From positions 1-31,105 of the IMG/VR virus record IMGVR_UViG_3300044956_000800: 31,105 nt of DNA; one strand, given 5' to 3'. Below the pieces are notes generated by a model. The model was not told where the DNA came from. It saw only the letters and a list, made by a program, of their open reading frames with translations, and ran no database searches. Every line of letters begins with the position of its first letter. Position 1 is the stretch's first letter. Below are positions 2,945 through 30,733 of this stretch, in pieces. The stretch comes from a virus. A program made the translations under genes and the position numbers.

Positions 2945-2955
2945 TTTAAAATATT

Positions 2956-3042
2956 CGGTGCGAGTAGGATTCGAACCCACGGATGATTTTACTCATCGAA
3001 AGTTTAGTAAACTCCTGCTTTAGACCACTCAGCCATCGCACC
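2956..3042 (-). tRNA. tRNA-Ser with apparent anticodon ACT
   Basis: The cloverleaf is complete: acceptor GGTGCGA (3042-3036) pairs with TCGCACC (2963-2957); D arm GCT/AGC; anticodon stem GGAGT/ACTTT (two G-U pairs) with loop TTACTAA. A long variable arm has stem GATGA/TCATC, and the T arm is GTGGG/CCTAC with loop TTCGAAT. The long variable arm and G73 (2956) mark a serine tRNA. The anticodon (3008-3006) reads ACT, which would pair with AGU; the usual serine tRNA here is GCT. CCA is not encoded. The gene lies 4 nt after the stop of the flavin reductase gene and should be cut out of the operon transcript. Confidence 0.9.
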
Positions 3043-3046
3043 AAAA

Positions 3047-5926: not shown

Positions 5927-6239
5927 GGATAATATATTCCACTAAATTTTTCCATTCATTTTTAGTATGTCCAAATACGCTATTATAAGCTACATAATAA
6001 GAATTGTATCTCCACCAACCATCTTCTAAAATATCAGGATCAATATCTAATTCAGAATATAATTCTAAAAGGTTCTTTGTCGGAGAAGTATTTTCTGATG
6101 GTTTTGGGGTAGTCATAACTTTATCCAAATAAATAGTTATTAATTGATTCAACTTTTGATCATCTTCTGATTTTCCATAAAATTTAGCCAATACATATAG
6201 CCTTGGCCTTATTTCATTTCGATTTCGAATTTGATTCAT
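5919..6239 (-). CDS. Hypothetical phage protein, 106 aa, after the ACP gene
   Basis: This soluble protein has an acidic centre (LLELYSELDIDPDILEDGWW) and an aromatic C terminus (YNSYYVAYNSVFGHTKNEW). Its start at 6239 lies inside the last codons of the ACP gene (26-nt overlap), so its expression depends on the ACP message. No family is recognised; a partner role for the ACP is conceivable only from position. Confidence 0.65.
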   Translation of the reverse strand: MNQIRNRNEIRPRLYVLAKFYGKSEDDQKLNQLITIYLDKVMTTPKPSENTSPTKNLLELYSELDIDPDILEDGWWRYNSYYVAYNSVFGHTKNEWKNLVEYIIHG

Positions 6240-6498
6240 CGTTAATTTTCTTATTCAAGAACTCAATAAATTCTCCAAAAGCTTTCATACTAGTTTTCAT
6301 TTCTTCTATCTGCTTGGCATTTTGTATCAACCAAATATTATACTTATCTTCTATTTCCGAGGCTATTGATAATAAAGCGAATGAATCTAAATTAAGGTCT
6401 TCTAAAGAAGTATTCTCTTCGATAGCTATTCCTTTTTTATCTTTTAAAAGTTCATTTCTAATTAAAGTCTTAATTTGTTCTGGATCTACTGTTTTCAT
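6214..6498 (-). CDS. acpP: Acyl carrier protein
   Basis: This 94-aa protein has the acidic four-helix ACP pattern. The carrier motif DLNLDSFALLSIASEIEDKY places the phosphopantetheine acceptor at S39 (after D38), with the acidic recognition helix next to it. The usual DSL is DSF here. A C-terminal extension of about 15 residues is polar. The phage also encodes a holo-ACP synthase (8498-8806) that could load this ACP. The gene has its own promoter (TGGACA-N16-TATAAT, 6 nt before ATG 6498) inside the end of the purA-like gene and leads an operon of five genes. Which acyl or aminoacyl group it carries is unknown. Confidence 0.85.
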   Translation of the reverse strand: MKTVDPEQIKTLIRNELLKDKKGIAIEENTSLEDLNLDSFALLSIASEIEDKYNIWLIQNAKQIEEMKTSMKAFGEFIEFLNKKINDESNSKSK

Positions 6499-6504
6499 AT
6501 TAAT

Positions 6505-6532
6505 ATTATATCAAATACTTTCTTTATGTCCA
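6505..6532 (-). promoter_or_regulatory. Sigma70-type promoter, leaderless for the ACP operon
   Basis: Minus strand: TGGACA (6532-6527), 16-nt spacer, TATAAT (6510-6505), 6 nt to ATG 6498. It overlaps the last codons of the purA-like gene. Confidence 0.7.
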
Positions 6533-7506
6533 GAAAATACTACGTCACAGTATTCTTTTAATTCATTTAAAATATATTGTTTCATATTAGCGAAGTCATT
6601 AAATTTAATGAAATTAGGTCCCGAATTTTCATTATCTGTTTTAAGTTTGAATATATTAAGCTGTTCTAAAATATCGCATTTATTAATTATTAGTTTAGTG
6701 GTTCCAGATATTATAATCGCTTCTTTTAGTTTAGCAAGATTTAACCAATTTGTTATTCTTTTTCTATTAGTTGTTGTTCCATATTCCTTTCCTAGGTCTA
6801 TCAATTTATTTAACTCGTCATCTTGCCAAAGACTTTCTGGAAAAAGCGGATCTACTCCACTTTTGGTATCATATATTTTAGCTACCCCAATAATATCTTT
6901 TATTTTTTTGGGACTAAATCCTAAAGAGCAGGCTGAATAAGGTAATGTTTCACTACTGGTAACATATGGATAGTCTCCATAATTTATATCTAACCAAAAA
7001 CTTTGCGCTCCCTCACACAAGACGCTTCCTTCTAATTTACCATCCCAAATGTATTTTTTATCTAGATAATTTTTAGCTAATTTACCAATCCTTAACATCT
7101 TGTCTCCATATGCGGGAGCTATTCCTTGACCTGTTGTTCCTAACCTGGGTTTTAGAAATTTAAGATCATATCTTATGTGTCTTTCTGTGATTAGATTCGT
7201 CTTTGGACTCACTTTAATTAAAGAAGTATCGAATCCTTCTTTTTGTAAATACTCTATTTCGTCAAAAAATTTATCAATATTAATTACGCAATTTGGCCCA
7301 ATAATTGATTTTTTATTGTGAAATACACCAGAAGGAATAATATGCGTTTTATATTTTTTACCATTTAAATAAACTGTATGCCCTGCATTTGGACCACCAT
7401 TCCAACGACATACATAATCATAGTTTTTAGCTAAAGCGCTTGATATCTTACCTTTTCCTTCATCGCCCCAACAGATACCAAATATAACATCTACATATTC
7501 TATCAT
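6511..7506 (-). CDS. purA: Adenylosuccinate synthetase-family enzyme (PurA / PurZ-like)
   Basis: This 331-aa protein (ATG 7506 in a TAATG overlap; a TTG at 7515 is possible) has the whole PurA core: WGDEGKGK with D15, NAGHT with H43, GTTGQGIAPAYGDK, EGAQSFWLDINYGDYPYVTSS, TTTNRKRI for aspartate binding, and INKCD for guanine of GTP. PurA makes adenylosuccinate from IMP, Asp and GTP. The short length matches archaeal PurA and phage PurZ rather than the roughly 430-aa bacterial enzyme. PurZ acts on dGMP to build 2-aminoadenine DNA and often lacks this Asp, which is retained here. So PurA, or a PurZ0-like enzyme that keeps the Asp, are both open. An IMPDH/GMPR-family gene lies 1.3 kb upstream. 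Confidence 0.88.
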   Translation of the reverse strand: MIEYVDVIFGICWGDEGKGKISSALAKNYDYVCRWNGGPNAGHTVYLNGKKYKTHIIPSGVFHNKKSIIGPNCVINIDKFFDEIEYLQKEGFDTSLIKVSPKTNLITERHIRYDLKFLKPRLGTTGQGIAPAYGDKMLRIGKLAKNYLDKKYIWDGKLEGSVLCEGAQSFWLDINYGDYPYVTSSETLPYSACSLGFSPKKIKDIIGVAKIYDTKSGVDPLFPESLWQDDELNKLIDLGKEYGTTTNRKRITNWLNLAKLKEAIIISGTTKLIINKCDILEQLNIFKLKTDNENSGPNFIKFNDFANMKQYILNELKEYCDVVFSGHKESI

Positions 7507-7724
7507 TATTCGCAATCGTAAATCCTATTAGGATTTCTAATATCAAAAATACTTACATTTTGTTCTATTTTTTCATTAATAATAGATAATGTTTCATGAT
7601 CAATTACCTTATTAACGATTCCGCAATAGCCTTCGTCTAGAAGAGAGTTGACGACTATGAATACTCTTTTTCCTATCATCTTTTTCAAGATGTTTATTTT
7701 AGTTTTCTTTAATATTGAATCCAT
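7506..7724 (-). CDS. Small phage protein with an SH3-like segment, before purA
   Basis: This 72-aa protein contains the segment MIGKRVFIVVNSLLDEGYCG followed by IVNKVIDHETLSI and VSIFDIRNP. It looks like a small beta barrel and resembles short phage proteins I have seen with KVFI ... EGICG ... SIFDVR. It has no known function. Its stop overlaps the purA-like start (TAATG), so the two are coupled. A TTGATT-N17-TAATAT promoter stands 6 nt before its ATG. Confidence 0.7.
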   Translation of the reverse strand: MDSILKKTKINILKKMIGKRVFIVVNSLLDEGYCGIVNKVIDHETLSIINEKIEQNVSIFDIRNPNRIYDCE

Positions 7725-8497: not shown

Positions 8498-8806
8498 TTA
8501 AACATTTTTAAAAACTATTGCTGTCGCATAGTCTCCGTCATGACTAATAGAAATCATACAATCTATATTTTTGCCATCTATTAATATTGAGGGCTTTTTA
8601 TTAATCGTTAATATTTCTATCTCTTTATTTATCTTTAAGATCCCAGCTTTATATGCTGCTTCTTTTGCAGCCCATTTTCCAGCTAATTTTTCATGAATAT
8701 TATTAGCCTTTGTCTCAGCGATTTCTCTTTGAGAGAAGACTTTTTCTATGAAAGATTTAGACTTATTTTTAAGTCTATTTATATTAAATATATCTATACC
8801 AATCAT
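8498..8806 (-). CDS. acpS: Holo-[acyl carrier protein] synthase
   Basis: This 102-aa protein is a short but complete AcpS: N-terminal GIDIFNINRL with Mg ligand D5, the helix GKWAAKEAAYKAG with Mg ligand E49, and the C-terminal strand ISISHDGDYATAIV. AcpS transfers 4'-phosphopantetheine from CoA to the serine of an ACP. The natural partner is the phage ACP at 6214-6498. Bacterial AcpS is usually about 120-125 aa, so this is slightly trimmed. It starts 3 nt after the IMPDH/GMPR-family gene ends and is the last gene of the long operon from 11960. Confidence 0.9.
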   Translation of the reverse strand: MIGIDIFNINRLKNKSKSFIEKVFSQREIAETKANNIHEKLAGKWAAKEAAYKAGILKINKEIEILTINKKPSILIDGKNIDCMISISHDGDYATAIVFKNV

Positions 8807-8808
8807 AT

Positions 8809-9915
8809 TTATTTACCGTGAGCAAAACTTTCATACATACTATTAGGACTTACTTTCACTACTTTTATTTTATTTGTCCAAATTCCACCTCTAATTTCTT
8901 CTATTGATCTAAAACCAAGATAACTCATGGCGCTTCTCAATCCATTTGCAAAATCATAAACAACATCTTCTAAAGTTTTATCTTTTAATAAGGGAATTAA
9001 AGTTCTATCCCCTTCGACAAAAAGATTCTTTTTTGTTCCATCGTAAAGCTCGTAATCTTCCACTACGTCTTTACTTGCCATGCCTCTATATTTGGCAAAT
9101 AGTTTCCCATCTTTTTCTATAATATTCTCCTCATCAACAACATCAGCGATACCCGCAAAAATTCTACCGCAGATAACTCCATCTGCTCCGCTTGCAATAG
9201 CCTTTACAAGATCTCTAGGATTTCTAATTCCTCCATCAGCTAAAATGCTTGGCCTGTTCTCTTCTTTTGGATGTTCATGTCGAAAATAATCTAGATTTGC
9301 TAATTGAAAATTTCTTACTGCTTTCCAAGCATAATACAATCCTGTTACGCTTGGGCAACCTATGCCTGTTTTAATTTGTGTCAAACACATACTTCCTGGA
9401 CCAATGAGGTGTCTAAAACCATCTGCTTCTAAATTCGCTAAACGATAAACACTTTCTTTTGTTAAAGTATTTCCAACGATAATATCTTGAGTATAGCTAG
9501 ATTGTTTGTACCATATCAGAAAATCTTCTACATTTTGTGATAATCCATTCGCTGTATCCAAAAAGAATATGTCTGTATATTGAGATATAATTGGTAGTCT
9601 AGTCTGAAAATCTTTTAGTCCAATTGCATTAATGCAAAAATTACTTTCATCTTTAATATATTTTGCTTTTTTAGCTTGTTGTTCTGGAGTCATGAATCTG
9701 TGAAGAACTCCTGCACCTCCAATCTGATTTATTTTAATGCATGGTTTAACAGATGAAACTGTATCCATTGGAGAAAGGATAATAGGGATATCTATATACT
9801 TATTTTTCGAAATTTTCGTGATCGTGCTGACTTCTTTTCTAGATGAAATATTAGAAAAGTTTGGCAACAATGCTATATCATCGTATCCTAATCCGTCTTC
9901 TATATGTATTTTCAT
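8809..9915 (-). CDS. IMP dehydrogenase / GMP reductase family enzyme (GMPR-like)
   Basis: This 368-aa TIM barrel has no CBS pair. It starts DGLGYDDIALLP and contains ILSPMD, the catalytic loop GPGSMCLTQIKTGIGCP with C177 and T179, LADGGIRNPRDLVKAIASGA and GADGVICG. After YRGMAS there is no Arg-Tyr pair like the IMPDH flap dyad, which argues for GMP reductase (GMP to IMP). However, the Glu expected in GMPR after MSS is Lys here, and the C-terminal ESFAHGK recalls the ESHPH end of IMPDH. Direction therefore stays open. With PurA it could turn GMP into AMP. It starts 1 nt after the stop of the 102-aa gene. Confidence 0.85.
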   Translation of the reverse strand: MKIHIEDGLGYDDIALLPNFSNISSRKEVSTITKISKNKYIDIPIILSPMDTVSSVKPCIKINQIGGAGVLHRFMTPEQQAKKAKYIKDESNFCINAIGLKDFQTRLPIISQYTDIFFLDTANGLSQNVEDFLIWYKQSSYTQDIIVGNTLTKESVYRLANLEADGFRHLIGPGSMCLTQIKTGIGCPSVTGLYYAWKAVRNFQLANLDYFRHEHPKEENRPSILADGGIRNPRDLVKAIASGADGVICGRIFAGIADVVDEENIIEKDGKLFAKYRGMASKDVVEDYELYDGTKKNLFVEGDRTLIPLLKDKTLEDVVYDFANGLRSAMSYLGFRSIEEIRGGIWTNKIKVVKVSPNSMYESFAHGK

Positions 9916-12463: not shown

Positions 12464-13057
12464 ATGCTTAATAAAATTATTGGCGTTTCTGGATGTGCAA
12501 GATCAGGAAAAGATACATTTTTTTCTATATTAAAAAAATATATTCCAGAAGTAGAGCAGGTGGCTTTAGCTCATGAATTAAAAAAACATTTAGATGATTT
12601 TGTAAAATCAAAAATTGGCATATCTGTATTTACGGATGAAACCAAAGATAAAAGTTTAATTCGTGGATTAATGGTGGAATATGGCAAGATTAAACGACAA
12701 CAAACAGAAGGAACTTATTGGACTTGTCTGGCTCAAAAAAAGATAAATGAAATATTAAGAAGTGATAAGATTCCAGTTATTACAGATGTAAGATATGATA
12801 TTTATCCAAAAGATGAATTCTTTTGGTTAAAAGAGCAGAATAACGGACTTTTAGTTCATATTACTCGGATGTTTGGAAGCGATGAAATTCCTCCTGCTAA
12901 TGAAGAAGAATCTATTAACAATGAAAAATTAAAAACTAAGGCTGATTACTCTATAAAATGGAATACAGTCGGGGCTTATCATACAGCTTTAAATGATTAT
13001 CATCTCAATGAAATAGTGAAAGGATTTATAAAATATTATGAAAAATTTAGAAAGTAA
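12464..13057 (+). CDS. Deoxynucleoside monophosphate kinase (T4 gp1-like)
   Basis: This 197-aa protein has a P-loop at the N terminus, GCARSGKDT (residues 10-18), the pattern of T4 gp1-type dNMP kinases. A lid and substrate region follows (LIRGLMVEYGKIKRQQTEGTYW), then ITDVRYDIYPKDE and LLVHITR. These enzymes phosphorylate several dNMPs to dNDPs, the step between dCMP deaminase / thymidylate synthesis and the triphosphates. The start at 12464 follows from the promoter. The gene overlaps the next one (sigma factor) by 20 nt. Confidence 0.88.
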   Translation: MLNKIIGVSGCARSGKDTFFSILKKYIPEVEQVALAHELKKHLDDFVKSKIGISVFTDETKDKSLIRGLMVEYGKIKRQQTEGTYWTCLAQKKINEILRSDKIPVITDVRYDIYPKDEFFWLKEQNNGLLVHITRMFGSDEIPPANEEESINNEKLKTKADYSIKWNTVGAYHTALNDYHLNEIVKGFIKYYEKFRK

Positions 13058-13640
13058 AACTGATCAACAACTTATTCGAAGAGTACAAAATAAAAATTGC
13101 GAAGAAAGTTTAAAAATATTAATCAATAGACATAGTCCTTTATGTTACAAGATATATAAAAAATATACGCCTTCCTTTAACGTAAAGAATATAGATTTAA
13201 ATGAAGTTTATCAGCAAAAAGATTATATTATATACAAGACAGTAATATCATATAAATCTAATAAGAAAGTTAAATTTTCAACATGGTTAGGAAATCAAAT
13301 TAGATATCAATGCTTAAACGCTATAAATAAAAAAGAAGATATTATTTATTTAGAGCAAAAAAAGCTTCAATTTTTAATAGATAAAAACAATACGGAAGAT
13401 AAAACTAGTAAATTAGTTGAGCTAAAGGAATATATTATAACTTTATTAGATCAGTTAAAAGATGAAAGAATATCTAAAATATTTAATATGAGATATTTTC
13501 AAAACACTTCAAGTCAAACTTGGACTAAAATTGGCAAAAAAATGAAAATGAGTACGCAAAATGCAATAAACCTCCATAATAAAGGAGTCCAAATTTTAAA
13601 AAATAAATTGACAAGTAAGGATTTGTTTGATAAAATATAA
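13038..13640 (+). CDS. Phage RNA polymerase sigma factor, sigma70 family
   Basis: This 200-aa protein has a sigma region 2-like segment from about residue 8 to 96: DQQLIRRVQ, ILINRHSPLCYKIYKKY, then KFSTWLGNQIRYQCLNAI, which is the F-T-W/Y-x4-IR-x-x2-N pattern of region 2.3-2.4. A region 4 helix-turn-helix lies near 145-195 (WTKIGKKMKMSTQNAINLHN). Regions 1.1 and 3 are absent, as in small phage and ECF-type sigmas. It would direct host RNA polymerase to phage promoters. A good candidate target is the GTGTAAWW element that replaces TTGACA/TATAAT in the right half. The ATG is inside the kinase gene. Confidence 0.82.
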   Translation: MKNLESKTDQQLIRRVQNKNCEESLKILINRHSPLCYKIYKKYTPSFNVKNIDLNEVYQQKDYIIYKTVISYKSNKKVKFSTWLGNQIRYQCLNAINKKEDIIYLEQKKLQFLIDKNNTEDKTSKLVELKEYIITLLDQLKDERISKIFNMRYFQNTSSQTWTKIGKKMKMSTQNAINLHNKGVQILKNKLTSKDLFDKI

Positions 13641-13656
13641 CAATAAGGAGAACAAA

Positions 13657-13977
13657 ATGAGCGAAAATAATAAAACTGATTGGTCAAAGCTAGAACTAGG
13701 TGCTCTTTGGAAGAGAAAGAGCGCGACCCAAACATATCTAAGTGGATATATTAAAGTCGATGAGCTTGGTACTCAAAAAGAAGTTAAAGTTATAGTCTTC
13801 TCTAATAAGAGTAAGAAGGACAATGATAAGGCTCCAGATTTTAGAGTATATCTATCTGAGCCAAAAAATACTTCTTCCGAAGCTTCAACGAAAGCTCCTG
13901 TAAATAATCAAGTAAAGCCTGTACAAAAGAAAGCGCCAGTTACTGTATCAGAATCTGAAGATGAAGATATTCTGTGA
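13657..13977 (+). CDS. DUF736-like small protein with acidic tail
   Basis: This 106-aa protein starts at ATG 13657, which has a good AGGAG 6 nt upstream; an in-frame start at 13627 lies inside the sigma gene. The first 70 residues (KLELGALWKRKSATQTYLSG, then VKVIVFSNKS and APDFRVYLSEP) follow the DUF736-like pattern 'GALWKR ... YLSGYI ... F-N ... P-D-R-Y'. The tail is proline/alanine/lysine-rich and ends with the acidic SESEDEDIL. Acidic tails of this kind are common in ssDNA-binding proteins that recruit partners, but that role is only a suggestion. Confidence 0.8.
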   Translation: MSENNKTDWSKLELGALWKRKSATQTYLSGYIKVDELGTQKEVKVIVFSNKSKKDNDKAPDFRVYLSEPKNTSSEASTKAPVNNQVKPVQKKAPVTVSESEDEDIL

Positions 13978-15062
13978 GTAAAAACTTAGCATTACATTTA
14001 CCTGTCAATGCTGTAAGTTTCGGGCAGGTTTCAGTTGGTATTCTTAGAGAATTCTATAGAAGAAAGCTGGAACCTTGCCTGTTTCTTATTGGTGATCAAG
14101 CTGATTTAAGCGTGTACAACGCGGATACTGATTTCTCTAAATGGATGCAAGATTGTTCTAACAGATCTTTAAAAGACCATAAAAGATCTAATCCAATATT
14201 TAAATTATGGCATCTGAATGGATCTTTGGAAAGTTATAGTGATAAACAAATTCTTTTGACTTTTTATGAATTAGATTCTCCCACGGCACAAGAGCTTAAC
14301 ATTATGAAGAATAATTATAAAATCCTTGTATCCTCAGAGTATACACAAAATGTATTTAAAGAAGCTGGACTAACTAACGTAGATTATATCCCTTTAGCTT
14401 TTGATAAGTATAGTTTTTTTGTAAAAAACAATAACAATATTCTAAATGACAGAATAACTTTTAATGTTGTAGGAAAATTAGAAAGAAGAAAGCATCATGC
14501 TAAAATTATTAAGTCTTGGGCAGAAAAATATGGTAATAACAAAGATTATTATTTGAATTGCTCAGTATTTAATCATTTTATTAAAATGGAAGATCAGCAA
14601 AAGCTCTTGGCAGCATTATTAGGGAATAAAAAATATTTTAATATCAATTTCTTAGGGTTTATGCCAAACAATAGTATTTATAATGACTATTTAAATAGTG
14701 GAGACATTATAGTTGGAATGAGCGGTGGAGAGGGCTGGGGTTTGCCAGAGTTTAATAGTTTATGCTTAGGAAAACATGGAGTTATTCTAAATGCTCACGC
14801 TTATAAAGGATGGGCAAATGAGCAAAATGCAACTCTTGTGAATCCTCATAGTAAAGTAGAAGCTTATGATGGTATGTTCTTTAAGAAGGGATCTCAATTT
14901 AATCAAGGGAACATTTTTGATTTTGATCACAATGATTTCTTAAAAGCTTGTGACGTAGCTATAAATAAAGTTAAATTAAATAGAGTAAATCAAAATGGTT
15001 TAGATCTTCAGAAAAAATTTACATTTGAAAAAATGGTAGATAATATACTTAATTATGCCTGA
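13974..15062 (+). CDS. Glycosyltransferase, GT4/GT1-like (GT-B fold)
   Basis: This 362-aa protein starts at GTG overlapping the previous stop (GTGA). The N-terminal half has an opening strand ALHLPVNAVSFGQVSVGI and the middle LVSSEYTQNVFKEAGLTNV, typical of the acceptor domain. The C-terminal half starts TFNVVGKLERRKHHAKIIKSW and contains the donor-binding block MSGGEGWGLPEFNSLCLGKH, with the two glutamates of the E-x-E motif, and a final helix TFEKMVDNIL. It probably transfers a sugar from a nucleotide-sugar to phage DNA, a virion protein or the host surface; the acceptor cannot be told from sequence. Confidence 0.85.
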   Translation: MSKNLALHLPVNAVSFGQVSVGILREFYRRKLEPCLFLIGDQADLSVYNADTDFSKWMQDCSNRSLKDHKRSNPIFKLWHLNGSLESYSDKQILLTFYELDSPTAQELNIMKNNYKILVSSEYTQNVFKEAGLTNVDYIPLAFDKYSFFVKNNNNILNDRITFNVVGKLERRKHHAKIIKSWAEKYGNNKDYYLNCSVFNHFIKMEDQQKLLAALLGNKKYFNINFLGFMPNNSIYNDYLNSGDIIVGMSGGEGWGLPEFNSLCLGKHGVILNAHAYKGWANEQNATLVNPHSKVEAYDGMFFKKGSQFNQGNIFDFDHNDFLKACDVAINKVKLNRVNQNGLDLQKKFTFEKMVDNILNYA

Positions 15063-15405
15063 GTATTTATACCAACATCCGTCTACAGAAGAGATTAAAA
15101 GTCTCATACAAAGCATTCACGATAAACATGAATATGTAGATTCTAATGGTATAAAATGGAATAGAATTTTTACTATACCTCAAATGGGGGTAGATACAAA
15201 AATGGATGCTAGTACAGATTCAAGAACTTTTACAGAAAAAACTAAAAATAAAAAAGGTTGTTTAGGCGATCTATTTGATCAAAGTAAAGAATTATCAGAA
15301 GCTAGGAAAAAGATGTACGGAAAAGACCCAGTCAAAAAGAAATATTGGGATGACTGGAGCAAAAAACGTAAAGGTAAGAAACATCCAGAGATGTTTAAAG
15401 ATTAA
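15055..15405 (+). CDS. Conserved phage protein (FmdB-like N terminus)
   Basis: This 116-aa protein begins MPEYLYQHPSTEEIKSLIQS, similar to the start of FmdB-type putative regulatory proteins but without their zinc-ribbon cysteines; only one Cys is present. The second half, KNKKGCLGDLFDQSKELSEA and a tail KKRKGKKHPEMFKD, matches a group of phage proteins I recall with 'GDL-D-S-ELS-R ... DPVK'. Function is unknown. It overlaps the glycosyltransferase gene by 8 nt and is the last gene of the rightward unit. It ends 2 nt from the convergent gene without an obvious terminator. Confidence 0.75.
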   Translation: MPEYLYQHPSTEEIKSLIQSIHDKHEYVDSNGIKWNRIFTIPQMGVDTKMDASTDSRTFTEKTKNKKGCLGDLFDQSKELSEARKKMYGKDPVKKKYWDDWSKKRKGKKHPEMFKD

Positions 15406-15407
15406 AT

Positions 15408-15671
15408 TTAAACAAATTTTAAATCTAGTTCTAGCTTACCTACTGCTTGTCCTCTATCAAATCTTTTGATAAAATTTGTTCCTTCTTTTGAGATTTCAGC
15501 ATGATAAGATTTGCCATTCTTAAGACTAATCTTAATGTGATCTGCTAAAACAGAAACAGTTTTTAGATTACGAATATTGTCTTTAAGAGAACGAGCTATT
15601 GCACAATTTTCTGGATTAGCTAATTCGCCTTCTTTAATATTCTTATTTGTTACTTTGATTTGTTTATTCAT
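15408..15671 (-). CDS. Conserved small phage protein, 87 aa (ENCAIARSL motif)
   Basis: The protein contains IKEGELANPENCAIARSLKD, then a beta-rich C terminus. Similar short phage proteins carry an NCPIALAL-type motif; no function is known. Its start overlaps the stop of the 212-aa gene (TAATG) and is preceded by AGGAGGT, a full Shine-Dalgarno embedded in the last codons of that gene. This shows that the phage also uses ordinary ribosome sites inside operons. Confidence 0.75.
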   Translation of the reverse strand: MNKQIKVTNKNIKEGELANPENCAIARSLKDNIRNLKTVSVLADHIKISLKNGKSYHAEISKEGTNFIKRFDRGQAVGKLELDLKFV

Positions 15672-16309
15672 TATTTTACCTCCTCTATTTTATACTCATA
15701 GTTATCATTGTCTTCTGTTGCCCATTTTGGGCAATTTTCTACAGTATAAATCTGACTATTAACTTTACGTTCAATTAGATTATGACCTTGTTTAGTTACA
15801 TAATTTGGATCGTATACTTTTATTCTATTGTTAGGCTGAATTGCGAAATTACCATTATCTAGTTGTATAACATGTCCGCATTTATGTTGCCCAGGATTTT
15901 CACTAAATCCAAAATTAAGCTCGTTAAAATCACTATGCGCCCAATCAAGAGTAAATAAATAAATTCCTAAATATTCTTTACCCGTCCTCGCTAAAAATTT
16001 AATTTTTTTATTTTGAAGCAGCGAGAATTTTGTTACAGAGATATGATAACTGAAGCTGTCCCATAGCTGTAGCTCATGCAAATCTTGCTCTGGTATTTCT
16101 TCTTGTGTGCAAAATGCACTAATTGGTGCATGCCACCAAATGCCACCATCTTCCATTAAAAAATTAAAAAGTGGAGCCTGACTTGGCAAACTTGTAACTC
16201 CAAAAACTAAACAAGAAAAATATTTATCATGTGAGTCTTTTTGATTTCTTAGATAGTTTCCTCTAACGAAACATTCTATTGGCGGTATATTTGCGTTTAA
16301 AAATGCCAT
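15671..16309 (-). CDS. Conserved phage protein of unknown function, 212 aa
   Basis: The start is ATG 16309 (MAFLNANIPPIECFVRGNYL); an upstream TTG at 16315 is less likely. The protein has a beta-rich central part with DGGIWWHAPISAFC, LWDSFSYHISVTKF and AHSDFNELNFGFSENPGQHK, and a C terminus with FAIQPNNRIKVYDPNY. I have seen this type in marine phages, always without a role. It shares an operon with the 87-aa protein and faces phoH across a 56-bp divergent promoter region. A GTGTAAAT element on the minus strand lies 17 nt before its start. Confidence 0.75.
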   Translation of the reverse strand: MAFLNANIPPIECFVRGNYLRNQKDSHDKYFSCLVFGVTSLPSQAPLFNFLMEDGGIWWHAPISAFCTQEEIPEQDLHELQLWDSFSYHISVTKFSLLQNKKIKFLARTGKEYLGIYLFTLDWAHSDFNELNFGFSENPGQHKCGHVIQLDNGNFAIQPNNRIKVYDPNYVTKQGHNLIERKVNSQIYTVENCPKWATEDNDNYEYKIEEVK

Positions 16310-16316
16310 CTTCAAA

Positions 16317-16326
16317 TTATTTACAC
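16317..16326 (-). promoter_or_regulatory. GTGTAAWW element (putative phage-type promoter) for the 212-aa gene
   Basis: Minus strand GTGTAAATAA starts at 16326, 17 nt before ATG 16309. It is one of eight similar elements upstream of genes in the right half of the window. Confidence 0.45.
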
Positions 16327-16341
16327 ATTATTTGATATCCA

Positions 16342-16351
16342 GTGTAATTAT
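16342..16351 (+). promoter_or_regulatory. GTGTAAWW element / TTTACA-N17-TGTAAT promoter for phoH
   Basis: GTGTAATTAT begins 24 nt before ATG 16366. The site also reads as TTTACA (16320-16325), 17-nt spacer, TGTAAT (16343-16348), so it may be served by host sigma70 as well as by a phage sigma. The expected leader is about 10 nt. Confidence 0.5.
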
Positions 16352-16365
16352 AAACGTAAGATTTA

Positions 16366-17109
16366 ATGTCTAAAAAACACAAGCAAAAGTCACAAGATAA
16401 ATCACCAGTAGTTCCTCAAAGAGACAAAATTGAAGGCTTTTTAGATATTCGTGAACTGCAATGGACAGACAATCAAAAAAAATTCATAGAATTAATACAA
16501 AATAAAGAGACGAAAATTGTATTCTGTAAAGGCCCAGCAGGAACAGCTAAAAGTTTATTATCTGTATATTCTGCTCTAAAAGCTCTTAATGAAAAAAAAA
16601 TAGGCGAGATATTCTATATTCGTAATCCTGTAGAAAGTTCTACCCATAATCTTGGATTTTTAAAAGGCGATTTACATAGTAAGTTAGATCCTTATTTACA
16701 GCCATTAATGGATAAATTGCATGAATTATTACCTAAATCTCAAGTAGAAAGATTATTAAAAGAGGAAAGAGTAAAAGGATTACCAGTAGGGTTTCTTCGT
16801 GGATTGAGTATTAATGCTAGTTATATTATATGTGATGAAGCTCAAAATTTGAGTATACATGATCTTCTTCTTATTACTACTAGAATGGGTAGATTTAGTA
16901 AACTTATATTAATTGGCGATATTAGACAGTCAGACATTAAAAATAGTGGTTTTGAAAATGTATATAATTTATTTGAAGATAAAAAAAGCAAAGACAAAGG
17001 TATTCATACATTTAAATTTGGGGCAGATGATATTATGAGAAATAATGTACTGGCTTATATTATTGAAAAATTTGAAGAATTATCTGCTAAAACCAATACA
17101 CGTAAATAA
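16366..17109 (+). CDS. phoH: PhoH-like ATPase
   Basis: This 247-aa protein is a single-domain PhoH. Walker A is GPAGTAKS (residues 56-63), Walker B YIICDEAQN (153-161), with sensor motif ILIGDIRQSD and the family-specific IRNPVESS and GFLKGD blocks. PhoH proteins are RNA-linked ATPases of unclear function and are widespread in marine phages. The N-terminal 20 residues are basic and variable. It opens the rightward packaging region but is separated from the zinc-ribbon gene by 46 nt with a possible promoter. Confidence 0.93.
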   Translation: MSKKHKQKSQDKSPVVPQRDKIEGFLDIRELQWTDNQKKFIELIQNKETKIVFCKGPAGTAKSLLSVYSALKALNEKKIGEIFYIRNPVESSTHNLGFLKGDLHSKLDPYLQPLMDKLHELLPKSQVERLLKEERVKGLPVGFLRGLSINASYIICDEAQNLSIHDLLLITTRMGRFSKLILIGDIRQSDIKNSGFENVYNLFEDKKSKDKGIHTFKFGADDIMRNNVLAYIIEKFEELSAKTNTRK

Positions 17110-17119
17110 AGATTAAAAT

Positions 17120-17148
17120 TAGAAAAAAGTATATTTAAAATATATAAT
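17120..17148 (+). promoter_or_regulatory. Possible leaderless promoter for the zinc-ribbon gene
   Basis: TATAAT (17143-17148) ends 7 nt before ATG 17156; the -35 position reads TAGAAA, a poor match. It fits the leaderless layout only in its -10 and spacing. Confidence 0.4.
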
Positions 17149-17155
17149 TTTATAT

Positions 17156-17539
17156 ATGCCAAAAGTATATTGTAGTAATTGTGGAAACGCTATACAATAC
17201 AGCGATATTAAACCTAATTTTTGTCAAAAATGTGGAGCAAATTTAGCTTCTGGTAAAGTCCAAATCGCTGCACAACCACAAATAGAAATTATTCAAGAGT
17301 CTAAGCCAAGATTAAATAATCTAAATTGGGATATAGAAATACAAAAACCAAAAGGCGAAAAATTAAAAGATTTAGCCAAAGGTGAAAAAACAAATATTGA
17401 TCGCAGATTTGTAGAAGAAAATATTTCAAAAGAAGAATTTTTAAAACAATTTCAAAAAGAAGCAGGTACTTTGCGCAAAGGTAATCAAAATTACCAAGCT
17501 TCTGATGATGGTTACGATGAAGAACCAGAAGATGCGTGA
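17156..17539 (+). CDS. Zinc-ribbon protein, 127 aa
   Basis: The N terminus carries a classic zinc ribbon: YCSNCG (C6, C9) and FCQKCG (C23, C26). The rest is polar and probably flexible: residues 60-95 are lysine-rich (EIQKPKGEKLKDLAKGEK), and the end is acidic (DDGYDEEPEDA). The stop overlaps the GTG start of the next gene, a sigma-like protein with its own cysteine cluster, so the two may function together in transcription. No family beyond the ribbon is recognised. Confidence 0.75.
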   Translation: MPKVYCSNCGNAIQYSDIKPNFCQKCGANLASGKVQIAAQPQIEIIQESKPRLNNLNWDIEIQKPKGEKLKDLAKGEKTNIDRRFVEENISKEEFLKQFQKEAGTLRKGNQNYQASDDGYDEEPEDA

Positions 17540-18213
17540 AAAAACCAACATTTGAAAATAAATTTAACGAAATAAATACTGAAATCTACAAGCGAAAGCA
17601 TAAGTGGAATTTAACTTCGCTTGCTTGGATGGATTTTGATGATGTAGCTCAAATACTTAGAATCCATATTCACAAAAAATGGAATATGTATAATCCAGAA
17701 CAGCCACTTGCTCCTTGGATCAATAGAATTGTTAGTAATCAGATTAAAAATCTTATTCGTAATAATTATGGAAATTATTCTCGTCCATGCTTAAAATGTG
17801 CAGCAGCTGAAGATGAAGAACATTGTAATATTTATGGTAAACAGTGTAACTCTTGTCCACTTTATGCCTCTTGGGAAAAAAATAAAAAAAATGCTCATGA
17901 CACAAAGCTACCTCTTGCATTAGAAAATCATATAAAAGAAGTTTATGAAATGCAAGATGGTAAAATCAATATAGAAGAAAGCGCAAAAAATATACATCAA
18001 AAAATGCAACAAGTCTTAAAACCAACCGAATGGAAAGTCTACAAACTATTATATATTGAACATAGAGATGAAGATCAAGTTGCTGCTAGCATGGGTTATA
18101 AAACAAATGAAAAGAATAGGGCTCCTGGATACAAACAAGTACAAAACATTAAAAAAGCTATAATGATTAAAGTTAAAAAATATATTTATGGCGATGAGAT
18201 AGATATTCGATGA
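17536..18213 (+). CDS. Sigma70-like transcription factor with inserted zinc-binding loop
   Basis: This 225-aa protein has a GTG start in a GTGA overlap. Residues 30-78 resemble sigma region 2 (DFDDVAQILRIHIHKKWNMY ... APWINRIVSNQIKNLIRNNY). Directly after it comes a cysteine cluster C85-x2-C88-x8-C97-x6-C104-x2-C107, which should bind zinc. The C terminus (residues 155-220) looks like region 4: a helix starting KPTEWKVYKLLYIEHRDEDQ, then VAASMGYK and a basic helix. This would be a second phage sigma, or a sigma-like co-activator comparable to T4 gp55 with gp33. It sits just before the packaging genes, which suits control of late transcription. Confidence 0.7.
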   Translation: MKKPTFENKFNEINTEIYKRKHKWNLTSLAWMDFDDVAQILRIHIHKKWNMYNPEQPLAPWINRIVSNQIKNLIRNNYGNYSRPCLKCAAAEDEEHCNIYGKQCNSCPLYASWEKNKKNAHDTKLPLALENHIKEVYEMQDGKINIEESAKNIHQKMQQVLKPTEWKVYKLLYIEHRDEDQVAASMGYKTNEKNRAPGYKQVQNIKKAIMIKVKKYIYGDEIDIR

Positions 18214-22061: not shown

Positions 22062-22071
22062 GTGTAATTTT
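22062..22071 (+). promoter_or_regulatory. GTGTAAWW element before the portal gene
   Basis: GTGTAATTTT begins 25 nt before ATG 22087 in the 29-nt gap after terL. There is no Shine-Dalgarno in the gap (AAAACAAACAAAA precedes the start), so start selection here is not by a classical ribosome site. Confidence 0.5.
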
Positions 22072-24926: not shown

Positions 24927-27002
24927 TTATTTATTTTCTTTTATTTTAGCTATTTCTTCTTTTAATTTCGAAATTTCTTTTGCTAGTTCTACACAAGATG
25001 CTAAAGCAGCATTTCCATAAGAAACAGACAATTCTCCATCTTTATTAGATGTTACTGCATTAGGCATTACTTGTCTTAAGCTTTGAGCAGATACTCCAAC
25101 TTGAGTTTTAATTCCATTATCTTTTTCATTAATATCTGTTCTATCGTAGATGCCACTTTTTACTTTAGCTAATTTTTCTACAAAATTATTATCAAAATTA
25201 CGCCAATTTGTTTTTACTCTCTCATCAGAATAAGCTGTTATATTTCCAATACACCATATACTGGAAGACAAAGCTGTCTGAGTAATTCCATTCACAACAA
25301 TTAATTGACCATGAGTAGAAAGATTAGCTCCTTGACCTCCGACATTTGGATGACTCCAAGCTATACCATAGAAATTATTATTACCCGTTCCAGCACTCAG
25401 ACTAGTCCCATCTGCTGTCATTGTATATGCTGAACCCATAGCGAAAACAGATTGAAATCTTACACTATCATATAATCCAACTAAACCATATCCATAATTA
25501 GCATTTGTAAGAATATCTCTGGCTACAGTTAAAGATCCATTAGGAATAACAACATTTGATGTTCCATAATTAATTCTTAATCCCCACGAGCTGGCATGAT
25601 TAAGAAGACCAAAGCCGGAAGCATCAGAATACACTGCTCCTTTTCTGGCAACGGGGAGGTGAGCTGAATCCCAAAAATCTATGCCAGAAGAGGTTCCGCT
25701 AGAATATATTCTTTGACAATTGTTCCAAGCACTACCATAAATATCTAATTTATAATTTAAAGTCTTTGTAGTAGTGCCAATCCCAATATTTCCTGTTGAT
25801 ACTCTTAAACCTGTTCCATCTACTTGCACAAAGCTTCTGTCATATTCGTCTCTAGTATCTAAAATTATACCTGTATCAAAGCTTATTCTTAATTGTTGAT
25901 ATACGTTAGGTATCCATGGTCCACTTGTTCTATGTATTGCATAATTAGTAGTACCAGCAGTATGCCAATAAATACCAGCAATACTATCTGTAGCAACACT
26001 ACTGCCTAACAAAAGATTAATTCTACCAGTACCACCTACATGAAGTTGATCTTCAGGAGCAACAGTTCCAATGCCTACTTTGCCACTATGTGAAATGGTC
26101 ATTCTTGTTTGTGCGCCTGTGGTATAATTATCTGTTGTAGCTAAAAACATTTGAGTCCCATAAGCCCCGCTACCTCTAACATAAATTCCAGCTTGTGTGC
26201 CACCACTATTTCCATTCCAACTTATACCGTTTGCATTATCAGCTGTAGTTATACCTGAAAAATGAATACCACCATAAGCTGATGCTCCAGGAGTAGTTGT
26301 ACTAATAGCAAATCCAGCACTTCCAATATTTAATTTTGTGCTTTCGTCTGTAGTGCCAATACTAACAGAACCAGTTGTTCCTGCTCCTCTGGTCATTCTG
26401 CAAATTTCTGTTAAAGTAACAGTATTACCTGCTGTTCCAGGTGCAGCGCCTCTAAATATAAAACCTCCATTAGAAGAAAAAGATAATTGAGAAACTGAAT
26501 CGTTCTCTAAATATCTTACTCCTGTTGTGTTAGTACTAGCAGTTCTTAAATCTCCATTATAACTAATGCAAGCATAATCACCTCCACCGTTTCCTATTGT
26601 TAAGTTCAATGGAAATACCACTTGACGTCCAGTGTCAGATCCAATTAGAGTGTTTGAAACGTGCAAAGCTCCTTTCATAGAAGTCAATCCACCAACGCCT
26701 ACTCTTCCACTAGAGTCTATTGTTAATCTATCAAGATTTTGAGTTGCATCATAAATTCTAAATAATTTTGTTGTATTTCCTGTCTGAGCTAATATTCTCC
26801 ATTCAGCATTAGTGACTCCTGTATCTGTTAGCCTAATATCTGCGCCTGAACCATACACATGAAATTTAGAAGTTGGATTAGCAATACCGATTCCAACAAA
26901 TCCATCACTATTTCTAATAAATAATTTACTAGTATTTGAAGTTTGTAAATCTAAACCTGTGGACGAACTATTAATGCTTTCTACCTGTAGAGTTCTTGGC
27001 AT
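24927..27002 (-). CDS. Tail fibre with C-terminal S74 intramolecular chaperone
   Basis: This 691-aa protein has at least five copies of a fibre repeat of the type VGIG-x-x-x-P-x-x-K/Q-L/F-x-V-G: near residues 36 (VGIGIANPTSKFHVYG), 99, 213, 311 (VGIGTVAPEDQLHVGG) and 406. The rest is Gly/Ser/Thr-rich beta structure. The C terminus, about 590-691, is a peptidase S74 domain: YSDERVKTNWRNFD with the catalytic Ser/Lys pair, VGVSAQSLRQVMPNAV, and a last coiled coil (CVELAKEISKLKEEIAKIKE) that trimerises and is cleaved off after folding. It forms a trimeric receptor-binding fibre. A GTGTAATAAT element lies 14 nt before its ATG. Confidence 0.92.
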   Translation of the reverse strand: MPRTLQVESINSSSTGLDLQTSNTSKLFIRNSDGFVGIGIANPTSKFHVYGSGADIRLTDTGVTNAEWRILAQTGNTTKLFRIYDATQNLDRLTIDSSGRVGVGGLTSMKGALHVSNTLIGSDTGRQVVFPLNLTIGNGGGDYACISYNGDLRTASTNTTGVRYLENDSVSQLSFSSNGGFIFRGAAPGTAGNTVTLTEICRMTRGAGTTGSVSIGTTDESTKLNIGSAGFAISTTTPGASAYGGIHFSGITTADNANGISWNGNSGGTQAGIYVRGSGAYGTQMFLATTDNYTTGAQTRMTISHSGKVGIGTVAPEDQLHVGGTGRINLLLGSSVATDSIAGIYWHTAGTTNYAIHRTSGPWIPNVYQQLRISFDTGIILDTRDEYDRSFVQVDGTGLRVSTGNIGIGTTTKTLNYKLDIYGSAWNNCQRIYSSGTSSGIDFWDSAHLPVARKGAVYSDASGFGLLNHASSWGLRINYGTSNVVIPNGSLTVARDILTNANYGYGLVGLYDSVRFQSVFAMGSAYTMTADGTSLSAGTGNNNFYGIAWSHPNVGGQGANLSTHGQLIVVNGITQTALSSSIWCIGNITAYSDERVKTNWRNFDNNFVEKLAKVKSGIYDRTDINEKDNGIKTQVGVSAQSLRQVMPNAVTSNKDGELSVSYGNAALASCVELAKEISKLKEEIAKIKENK

Positions 27003-27006
27003 ATCA

Positions 27007-27016
27007 ATTATTACAC
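27007..27016 (-). promoter_or_regulatory. GTGTAAWW element for the fibre gene
   Basis: Minus strand GTGTAATAAT starts at 27016, exactly 14 nt before ATG 27002. If the element sits at -14 to -5, transcription would start at the ATG. Confidence 0.5.
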
Positions 27017-27140: not shown

Positions 27141-29402
27141 ATGAGTAAAGAAATTTTAGTTAAAAAAAGAAACAATGTATCTGAAAAATTTGATATAGAA
27201 AAAATAAATAGAGTCATAAAATGGGCTATAGATGGTTATAGTGGAGTAAGTTTAACTGATATAGAAATTAATGCTAAAATTAATATGCACGAAGGAATTA
27301 GCACGAAAGAAATTCATAAACTACTAATAGAAAGTGCTGCAAATCTTATATCAATATCTAGTCCAAATTACCAATATGTAGCAAGCAGACTCTTGAATTA
27401 TCAATTAAGAAAAGAAGTCTGGAAAGGTAAACACGCTCCAAGATTAATAGAATTTATACAAAATGGTATAAAAAATAAAACTTATGATTCAGTTCTTCTT
27501 GACAAATACAGCGAAGATGAACTAAATAAAATAGGCGAATTTATAGATCATGATAGAGATTATAATTTCACTTACGCTGGTATAAAACAATTATGTGATA
27601 AATATTTAATTAAAAATAGAACTACTGGCGTAATATATGAAACTCCTCAGTTCGCTTATATACTAATAGCTGCTTATGCTTTTATAAATTATCCAGTTGA
27701 AACAAGATTAAATTATGTAAGAAAATTCTATGATGCTATTAGTAAACATAAAATCAATCTACCCACACCAGTAATGGCAGGAGTAAGAACTAATAGTAGA
27801 AATTATGCTAGTTGTTGTCTTATTGGAGTAGATGATACAAGAGAGAGTATTACGGCTAGTGCTACTGCTGTCAGTATGGCTACTGCAAATAGATGTGGAA
27901 TTGGAATTGATGTAAGTAAAATAAGAGCGCTTGGATCTCCTATTAAAAATGGTGAAGTTGTGCATACTGGTTTGATTCCATTTTTAAAAATTTATGAGAG
28001 CAGCGTTAAAGCATGGCAACAAAATGGTTTAAGAGGAGGCAGTGCAACTTGCAATATTCAATGGTGGCACTATGAAATTGAAGATATTGTTGTTTTAAAG
28101 AATAATGCTGGCACAGATGATAATAGAGTTCGTAAATTAGATTATACAGTTGGAATGAGCAAGCTTTTCTATGATAGAGTACTAAAAGATGAAGATGTAA
28201 CTTTATTTAATAATGCAGAAGTTCCAGAATTATATGAAGCTTGGGGCACAAAAAACTTTGATAAAATATATAAAGAATGCGAAAACAAAAAATTAAAAAT
28301 CAAAAAGAAAGTACCTGCTCGTAAACTTTTCTCATTAATAATCAAAGAAAGAGTAGAAACAGGAAGAATTTATATTTTAAATGTAGATCATGCTAATGAA
28401 CATGGAGCTTGGTCTGATAAAGTTACCATGAGCAATCTTTGTACAGAGGTTATTCATCCAACTATTCCGTTAAATGATTATCATGATAAAGAAGGCGAAA
28501 TTGGAATGTGTATCCTTTCGGCAGTTAATATGCTAGAAATTAAAAACTGGCAAGATCTTGAAAAGACTTGCGATCTTATCGTAAGATTTCTTGACGAAAT
28601 CATTGAGCTTCAAGATTATTTTAATATTGCTGCTGAAAATTTTGCTAAAAAACGTCGTAGCCTTGGAGTAGGTGTTACTAATCTTGCAGCTTATTTTGCT
28701 AAACATGAATTAAAATATAATTCTGACAAGACTCTTCCAGTATTAGATGAGTGGATGGAACATTTTCAATACTATCTATTAAAATCTAGTCTTCAATTAT
28801 CTAAAGAAAAAGGCAAATGTGAAAAATTTGATAGAACAAAATATGCAAAAGACATATTACCAATTGATACCTATAAAGATAAAGTAGATGAAATTTGCAA
28901 GAGAAAATTATCTCTTGATTGGGAATCTCTTAGAAAAGAAATTAAAGAACATGGACTAAGGCATTCAACATTATCTGCTTGCATGCCTTGTGAGAGTAGT
29001 TCTGTTATTCAGTCTTCAACAAATGGAGTTGAACCTATCAGAAGCTTAATTACTTATAAAATGAGCAAAATGGGTAAGCTTCCAGTATTAGTTCCAGGAA
29101 TAGGAAAATATGAAGGTAATTACGAACTTGCTTATGATTTTAAAGATAATTCTGGATTATTAAAAGTAAATGCAATTATACAAAAATATATTGACATGGC
29201 TATATCAACTAATGTATACTATAATTATTCTCATTATGAAAACAATGTTCTTCCAGATGCGAAAGTTATGAAAGAGATTATGTTTGCGTATAGCCTTGGA
29301 TTAATTAGCCTTTATTATTTAAACAGTAATGATGGAGATAAGGAACAATTATTAGATCAAAAAGAAGATCGTGATTGCTCCTCTGGAGCGTGTAAATTAT
29401 AA
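27141..29402 (+). CDS. nrdA: Ribonucleoside-diphosphate reductase, class I alpha subunit
   Basis: This 753-aa protein matches the length of NrdA. Residues 1-95 are an ATP-cone (SKEILVKKRNNVSEKFDIEK). The catalytic barrel has C225 (NYASCC), the N432-L-C434-T-E436 active site with thiyl C434, and C457 (GMCILSAVN), the partner of C225. PCESSSVIQSSTNGVEPIR is the phosphate-binding segment. The C-terminal C746/C751 pair (CSSGACKL) recharges the active site through thioredoxin or glutaredoxin. It reduces NDPs to dNDPs with NrdB and is followed by nrdB after 3 nt. The ATP-cone suggests dATP feedback is kept. Confidence 0.96.
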   Translation: MSKEILVKKRNNVSEKFDIEKINRVIKWAIDGYSGVSLTDIEINAKINMHEGISTKEIHKLLIESAANLISISSPNYQYVASRLLNYQLRKEVWKGKHAPRLIEFIQNGIKNKTYDSVLLDKYSEDELNKIGEFIDHDRDYNFTYAGIKQLCDKYLIKNRTTGVIYETPQFAYILIAAYAFINYPVETRLNYVRKFYDAISKHKINLPTPVMAGVRTNSRNYASCCLIGVDDTRESITASATAVSMATANRCGIGIDVSKIRALGSPIKNGEVVHTGLIPFLKIYESSVKAWQQNGLRGGSATCNIQWWHYEIEDIVVLKNNAGTDDNRVRKLDYTVGMSKLFYDRVLKDEDVTLFNNAEVPELYEAWGTKNFDKIYKECENKKLKIKKKVPARKLFSLIIKERVETGRIYILNVDHANEHGAWSDKVTMSNLCTEVIHPTIPLNDYHDKEGEIGMCILSAVNMLEIKNWQDLEKTCDLIVRFLDEIIELQDYFNIAAENFAKKRRSLGVGVTNLAAYFAKHELKYNSDKTLPVLDEWMEHFQYYLLKSSLQLSKEKGKCEKFDRTKYAKDILPIDTYKDKVDEICKRKLSLDWESLRKEIKEHGLRHSTLSACMPCESSSVIQSSTNGVEPIRSLITYKMSKMGKLPVLVPGIGKYEGNYELAYDFKDNSGLLKVNAIIQKYIDMAISTNVYYNYSHYENNVLPDAKVMKEIMFAYSLGLISLYYLNSNDGDKEQLLDQKEDRDCSSGACKL

Positions 29403-30723: not shown

Positions 30724-30733
30724 GTGTAAATAT
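30724..30733 (+). promoter_or_regulatory. GTGTAAWW element for the 112-aa membrane protein
   Basis: GTGTAAATAT starts at 30724, exactly 14 nt before ATG 30738. TATA-rich sequence fills the gap and leaves no ribosome site. Confidence 0.5.

Follow-up and report, generated by a model that had tools for sequence, protein, structure and literature searches.

Phage sigma factors that read a single promoter element are already known, as are sigma factors with cysteines in the linker between their two domains. In phiEco32, gp36 is a phage sigma factor serving middle and late promoters of the form tAATGTAtA (PMC8948821, PMC4331800), with transcription starting 6-8 bp past this single element (PMC8948821). 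In T4, the late sigma factor gp55 recognises no more sequence than an 8-bp element close to -10, and a -35 is absent (PMC2988020); gp55 resembles sigma2 alone and acts together with gp33 and the clamp gp45. The extracytoplasmic function (ECF, group 4) sigma factors SigW, SigH, SigL and SigE consist of sigma2 and sigma4 with a short specificity loop, and ECF sigma factors demand strict -10 matches, the -10 of sigmaH having a GTT core (PMC6411747, PMC6372665). In CorE and CorE2, metal-dependent ECF sigma factors of Myxococcus, metal-binding cysteines lie in the sigma2-sigma4 linker (PMC8999054). Here we describe a virus record of 31,105 bases (IMGVR_UViG_3300044956_000800, hereafter the window; AT-rich, GC 0.30), which encodes an ECF-like sigma factor with a cysteine knuckle (ZS) and a compact second sigma factor (S1), together with the element GTGTAAWW found upstream of its genes.

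Both genes lie at the coordinates originally given for them and encode real sigma factors, ZS having an ECF-like sigma2-sigma4 arrangement. The preferred explanation of ZS, which we consider probable, is that it is the late sigma factor of the lineage and reads GTGTAAWW on host RNA polymerase. With ZS as the reader, the system would resemble phiEco32 gp36 in that one -10-like element without a -35 serves virion genes. The motif and the hosts differ, however, and gp36 lacks region 4 according to its paper whereas ZS has a full sigma4; a zinc module and leaderless starts go unmentioned for gp36 in the accessible text. Unlike gp55, ZS is a fused sigma2-sigma4 protein with a cysteine knuckle, and the element is GTGTAA, compared with TATAAATA in T4 late promoters. 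Domain arrangement, short specificity loop and strict -10 are shared with the ECF group, but ECF promoters are bipartite with a -35 at fixed spacing, which GTGTAA sites do not have (if ZS is their reader), and the described ECF linker contains no such knuckle. CorE combines a CXC motif in the linker with a C-terminal Cys-rich domain, whereas in ZS the linker holds a complete site of four cysteines and the C-terminus bears no Cys domain. The ZS family is ECF-like by fold, would depart from that class in using no -35, and appears to work in the manner of gp36 and gp55. A literature search of partial coverage on GTGTAA phage promoters, zinc insertions in phage sigma factors and four-cysteine sites after region 2.4 returned nothing relevant.

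The lineage is widespread and comprises a large number of uncultured phages from aquatic habitats. In IMG/VR, a pattern scan of limited extent retrieved 417 relatives of ZS and 497 of the neighbouring terminase. The tblastn search of INPHARED returned no match for ZS or S1 (50,697 named phage records) or for the most distant ZS. The host is probably a relative of the Flavobacteriales, to judge from the weak evidence of two binned contigs and the rarity of ribosome-site motifs. As the lineage is abundant, yet has no named phage with a detectable ZS in the searched collection, the present analysis would offer a first handle on its gene control. If correct, the proposed reading would describe a natural system in which a short, near-invariant element specifies the late promoters and, through its spacing, leaderless starts of translation. 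Each of its components is small and lends itself to assays with purified RNA polymerase from the host or a surrogate.

The GTGTAAWW element and its placement

For seven genomes, namely the window and six long relatives, hexamers were counted in the 45 nt that precede the genes. GTGTAA was the top hexamer (102 genes against 5.1 expected), and this was seen in every genome, including those of 40-44% GC. The raw count of GTGTAAWW in the window was near chance (7 versus 5.7 expected), so placement and relatives were used instead. Six of the nine GTGTAA copies in the window were located at most 30 nt upstream of a same-strand start codon, where 0.19 were expected (p 7e-9), and each of the ten genomes or contigs examined gave a significant placement (p between 4e-5 and 2e-32 for the individual genomes). 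At 8-9 nt before the start, 43 copies were observed against 1.1 expected, with one-mismatch variants near background, and two W bases were preferred downstream of the motif. No -35 was found upstream of 107 GTGTAA sites, the only feature being a slight excess of T at 24-26 nt before the motif. The GTGTAAWW originally predicted in the window as a -10-like element without a -35 is a late signal of the whole lineage.

All ZS-bearing genomes tested contained GTGTAA, even where ZS identity fell to 37-40%, and on the contig with this most distant ZS it was again the top hexamer (5 versus 0.17 expected). It was unenriched in 50-kb stretches of three control phages, the Cellulophaga phages phi14:2 and phiST and the Pelagibacter phage HTVC008M; in HTVC008M the same method recovered the T4-like ATAAAT/TAAATA. 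TAAATA was weakly enriched in the seven genomes (94 versus 35).

The genes behind the element were examined in the relative G002, and those for portal, tape-measure and tail proteins are among them. GTGTAA was absent upstream of DNA polymerase, primase, DnaB helicase, exonuclease, rIIA/rIIB and a clamp-loader-like protein, several of which have TTGACA in front. Sites of the type TTGACW-N16-18-TATAAT numbered 23, against 1 in a mirrored control; early genes tend to use TTGACA-N17-TATAAT. A separate middle class, TTAGA-N18-TATAAT read by S1, was considered and rejected as too weak (18 versus 8 in the mirrored control).

Among 118 genes, the distance from GTGTAA to the ATG was 8 nt in 23 and 9 nt in 15, a peak with a sharp edge. 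At distance 8, a pyrimidine preceded the ATG in 25/25 genes, compared with 47% of genes that lack the motif. Among 52 other genes, whose leaders measure at least 16 nt, a pyrimidine-purine step peaked at the same offset (28/52; 6-19 at other offsets). Because two independent gene sets share this offset, initiation is predicted 8 nt after GTGTAA; the start would be the A of the ATG in the distance-8 set, and many late messages would then be expected to be leaderless. Such a spacing has the geometry of the phiEco32 gp36 promoters, with their starts 6-8 bp past the element (PMC8948821). A ribosome-site-like AAGGA was observed in 28 of 51 long leaders and in 2 of 55 short ones. Since many genes keep a strictly constant distance between motif and start codon, GTGTAA could also be no promoter but a signal for translation or RNA processing ahead of the late genes. 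This is very improbable, given that in the other half of the genes the distance runs from 10 to over 40 nt, often with ribosome-site-like sequence in between, that divergent GTGTAA pairs stand between opposite genes, and that the start-site-like step occurs at the same motif offset in both gene sets.

The ZS protein and its cysteine knuckle

ZS matched Pfam Sigma70_r2 (PF04542) with 24.3 bits against a cut-off of 24.0 (residues 32-77). TIGR02937 was matched by all 56 aligned family members (residues 28-189 in the window protein), but most of them missed its curated cut-off of 42.9 bits, which also sets the family apart from ECF sigma factors; the window protein scored 37.5 bits and one relative 43.1. 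In the full-length model (pLDDT 71, pTM 0.41), two well-modelled domains flank a middle part of poor quality; a second model covered the fragment of residues 1-127. Of the fragment model, residues 1-78 aligned with sigma2 of sigmaH transcription complexes with RNA polymerase (Z 8.9, 2.6 Å over 73 residues), and of the full-length model residues 148-219 aligned with sigma4 (3vfz, 62/62 residues at 1.8 Å; 8jzt, 57/57 at 1.2 Å). The sigma4 also aligned with 2h27, the sigmaE region 4 on -35 DNA, over 68/69 residues at 2.8 Å. The original prediction had read this gene as region 2, then cysteines, then a region 4-like end, and the models contain both folds, the sigma2 helices included. Foldseek returned nothing with an E-value below 0.001 for either model, the domain-wise alignment being informative instead. 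A profile search of the PDB gave only weak matches, to 5or5 and a RecR zinc finger (E 0.2-0.8). The best sigma factor in the PDB for the ZS profile was a sigmaE/SigW region-2 chimera solved with GTAAAA, and the alignment was gapless through the specificity loop.

As modelled, the helix of regions 2.3-2.4 (residues 58-81) leads directly into the knuckle (84-107), as had been proposed for a site right after region 2.4, and is followed by a helix, a linker of about 30 residues and sigma4. Two domains were recognised in the protein, with the knuckle at the place of sigma3.1, though no search aimed at sigma3 was made. Regions 2.5 and 3.1 of primary sigma factors, which read the extended -10, are located where ZS has the knuckle (PMC6411747).

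Residue invariance was assessed in 92 full-length ZS sequences reaching down to 50% identity. C85, C88, C97 and C107 were invariant (92/92), while position 104 was Cys in 64/92. All five cysteines of the cluster first noted are therefore present in the window protein, but homologues conserve a four-cysteine site, and a five-cysteine site is ruled out by the variable C104. The pattern CX2C-X6-12-C-X7-13-C occurred in all 142 unique near-full-length sequences, and the four cysteines were kept in the distant ZS of about 37-40% identity, whose contig was binned as Flavobacteriaceae. All invariant cysteines fall within residues 85-107. The cysteine pattern points to metal binding, putatively of zinc, although the site may hold an Fe-S cluster instead.

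Two roles of the knuckle were weighed. The one we favour, while holding it to be somewhat short of an even chance, is that it reads or braces an extended -10 and replaces the missing -35 contact. About as likely is a structural, sensing or partner-docking role, in which the knuckle would, away from promoter DNA, aid folding, sense redox state or metal, or dock the zinc-ribbon protein encoded next to ZS, and sigma2 alone would read GTGTAAWW; we hold this, too, to be a little less than evenly probable. The sensing of metal by CorE-type ECF sigma factors through linker and C-terminal cysteines (PMC8999054), the constancy of the zinc-ribbon neighbour and the partly variable residues between the cysteines speak for this second role. 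Against it stand the position of the knuckle directly after the -10-reading helix, the many conserved residues from N68 to C107, and the extra fixed GT of the motif just upstream of the ECF-type GTA core.

The neighbour lies immediately upstream, as predicted for a separate zinc-ribbon gene, and its end overlaps the start of ZS by 4 nt. A zinc-ribbon open reading frame directly upstream of ZS was found in all 211 loci with enough upstream flank; its four cysteines were invariant in 80/80 partners, while its acidic tail was variable with few short conserved patches. Most relatives have a TTAGA or TTGACA-N17/18-TATAAT site upstream of the same gene, and such TATAAT-type sites fit a regulator made before the late genes. 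In a few relatives (L075, L077-L080, L139), GTGTAA is located directly upstream of the operon, which makes positive autoregulation possible. A small conserved protein of the virion region (SQTHGKxE..TLDQIWGDxG; G002:33133-33480, G005:65038-65376, G008 C12:27164-27523) has a TTAGA-N17/18-TATAAT site like that of the ZS operon.

Candidate readers of the element

S1 matched TIGR02937 sigma70-ECF with 42.7 bits over profile positions 3-165 of 165 and phrog_351 sigma with E 3e-11, in agreement with the compact sigma of region 2 plus region 4 predicted at this gene. Its best PDB relatives were the primary sigma factors RpoD/SigA (E 1e-10 to 1e-7), and since these are its nearest solved relatives, S1 is expected to read TATAAT-like sequences. 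Orthologues of 35-81% identity were found in five relatives and mostly end in FDKI-like tails. Some relatives encode a third, longer sigma factor of 273-289 aa besides ZS and the compact one; it is RpoD/RpoH-like and scores over the TIGR02937 cut-off (G001:129399-130073, minus strand; G003:26369-27046 and G010:70556-71233, plus strand).

As a complete two-domain sigma factor that is also kept in near-complete relatives, S1 could itself be the reader of GTGTAAWW, with ZS reading another promoter class or acting as an accessory factor. We regard this as unlikely. The relationship of S1 to primary sigma factors and its KFSTW/KFSTY-type loop, which aligns to SigA without gaps, predict TATAAT-like reading, and its operon follows a promoter-like TTGACT-N17-TATAAT. 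Between the window and G001, S1 is 35% identical and ZS about 51%, and GTGTAA is unchanged. S1 is thus more plausible as a reader of TATAAT-type promoters than of GTGTAA. ZS is favoured over S1 because of these primary-sigma relatives, and further because its own best sigma relative bound GTAAAA and GTGTAAWW contains GTAAWW, because GTGTAA is the top hexamer also on the contig with the most distant ZS, and because its operon has TATAAT-type sites and, in a few relatives, GTGTAA itself. The GTAA fits an ECF-type -10 within one base of register, and the leading GT is equally strict.

Several points weigh against ZS as the reader. The binding of ZS to GTGTAA DNA is deduced from sequence, and the chimera bound to GTAAAA is matched only weakly (E 0.24-0.78). 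Because the long relatives G001-G003 as well as G007 also encode S1, presence and absence cannot separate the two sigma factors. Sigma4 normally reads the -35; ZS retains a good sigma4, yet no -35 is seen. The full-length model has a pTM of only 0.41 with a cysteine loop of low confidence, and the fragment model, which was built from a wider alignment and reaches pLDDT 72-86 across this loop, contains no metal. Gene starts in the window and the six long relatives were called mechanically as the longest ATG open reading frame.

A pair like T4 gp55/gp33, made up of ZS and the zinc-ribbon protein and activated by a sliding clamp, was also considered. Most ZS members have a short conserved acidic-hydrophobic C-terminal tail of the form [DEG][IVA]D[ILF]x (xEIDIx, residues 220-225, in the window protein), which resembles a partner-binding peptide and would in such a pair bind the clamp; the promoter has no -35, as in T4 (PMC2988020), and G002 encodes the clamp-loader-like protein. 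ZS has its own well-formed sigma4, however, unlike gp55, so the gp55/gp33 split suggested in the original prediction does not apply. The T4-type clamp profile (PF02916) had no match in G001-G003, its control signal being single and below the cut-off, PHROGs gave no clamp candidates in G002, and a search for the ZS tail on other, clamp-type proteins gave none that was convincing. We consider such a pair quite improbable. A search for family-B polymerases likewise found none.

Returning to ZS as the late sigma factor, we infer from the sequences its pairing with GTGTAA, the start site, the role of the knuckle and the order of the cascade. Early genes would be read from TTGACA-N17-TATAAT, after which ZS would be made from its TATAAT-type promoter; in the simplest cascade, the host sigma factor would lead to S1 and ZS, and ZS to the late genes. 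ZS would displace the host sigma factor on host RNA polymerase through sigma2 and sigma4. A search of three near-complete relatives for a multisubunit phage RNA polymerase gave none, which is consistent with the use of the host enzyme; PF00940 (T7-type RNA polymerase) had no match, but this profile was silent in controls too. With the start at +1, ZS would read one strict element, G-14 T-13 G-12 T-11 A-10 A-9 W-8 W-7, in which the specificity loop of the ECF-type sigma2 would recognise GTAAWW as a -10 like that of SigW. The GT in front of it would remain in the duplex, immediately upstream of the bases that melt, at the place expected for a module that follows region 2.4; the four-cysteine knuckle, in place of regions 2.5/3.1, would contact or brace this GT, making a -35 unnecessary. 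Initiation would be fixed 8 nt past GTGTAA; an ATG there would give a leaderless message, and with an ATG further on the leader would tend to carry an AAGGA-type site.

Taken jointly, the knuckle would be a new promoter-reading module that reads or braces the GT at -14/-13, frees a sigma factor with intact sigma4 from the -35 and fixes the start, so that many late genes are leaderless from a single GTGTAAWW, in a widespread lineage probably on Flavobacteriales-type hosts. This combined reading is put forward tentatively, as one that may well not hold in full.

Features of the window and other genes

Table 1. Positions in the window of the sigma factor genes, the zinc-ribbon gene and the predicted promoter elements
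Feature	Coordinates	Strand	Remarks
S1	13038..13640	+	sigma2 + sigma4, 200 aa; resembles a truncated primary sigma; kept in near-complete relatives
Predicted late promoter GTGTAAAT, divergent	16319..16326	-	214-aa gene 15671-16315; same divergent pair in G007
Predicted late promoter GTGTAATT of phoH	16342..16349	+	predicted start 16356 (C-G step), 10-nt leader
Promoter-like TTAGAA-N18-TATAAT of the zinc-ribbon/ZS operon	17119..17148	+	prediction
Zinc-ribbon protein	17156..17539	+	YCxxCG-x12-KPxFCxxCG + variable acidic tail; constant ZS neighbour, possible co-factor
ZS	17536..18213	+	ECF-like sigma, 225 aa; sigma2 1-80, Cys knuckle 84-107, linker 108-141, sigma4 142-221
CX2C-X8-C-X9-C putative metal-site segment of ZS	17788..17856	+	codons C85 to C107
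Predicted late promoter GTGTAATT of portal-like gene 22087	22062..22069	+	kept in G002, G007
Predicted late promoter GTGTAATA of tail-type gene 24927-27002	27009..27016	-	ATG 8 nt past GTGTAA, predicted leaderless
GTGTAAAT upstream of nrdB	29390..29397	+	within NrdA C-terminal codons (A-C-K); one of the six start-proximal copies
Predicted late promoter GTGTAAAT of gene 30738	30724..30731	+	ATG 8 nt past GTGTAA, predicted leaderless

The GTGTAA before nrdB is probably incidental to the C-terminal codons of NrdA. The same GTGTAAAT was observed before nrdB in G002 and G007, which is due either to chance or to a promoter that lies within a conserved coding end.

One stretch of window genes on the minus strand (6511-7515, 8809-9915, 6214-6498 and 8498-8806) encodes a PurA-like adenylosuccinate synthase, an IMP dehydrogenase/GMP reductase-like enzyme, an acyl carrier protein (ACP) and a holo-ACP synthase. 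PurZ, and with it a 2-aminoadenine genome, was ruled out, as the protein scores far better as PurA. In G002, the DNA polymerase (phrog_405) is encoded as two open reading frames of 865 and 248 aa (69511-72108 and 72952-73698, minus strand), between which a separate frame for a polymerase exonuclease subunit is located. A tRNA-Ser gene with the anticodon ACT (window 2955-3043, minus strand) overlaps the start of the open reading frame at 2444-2980.

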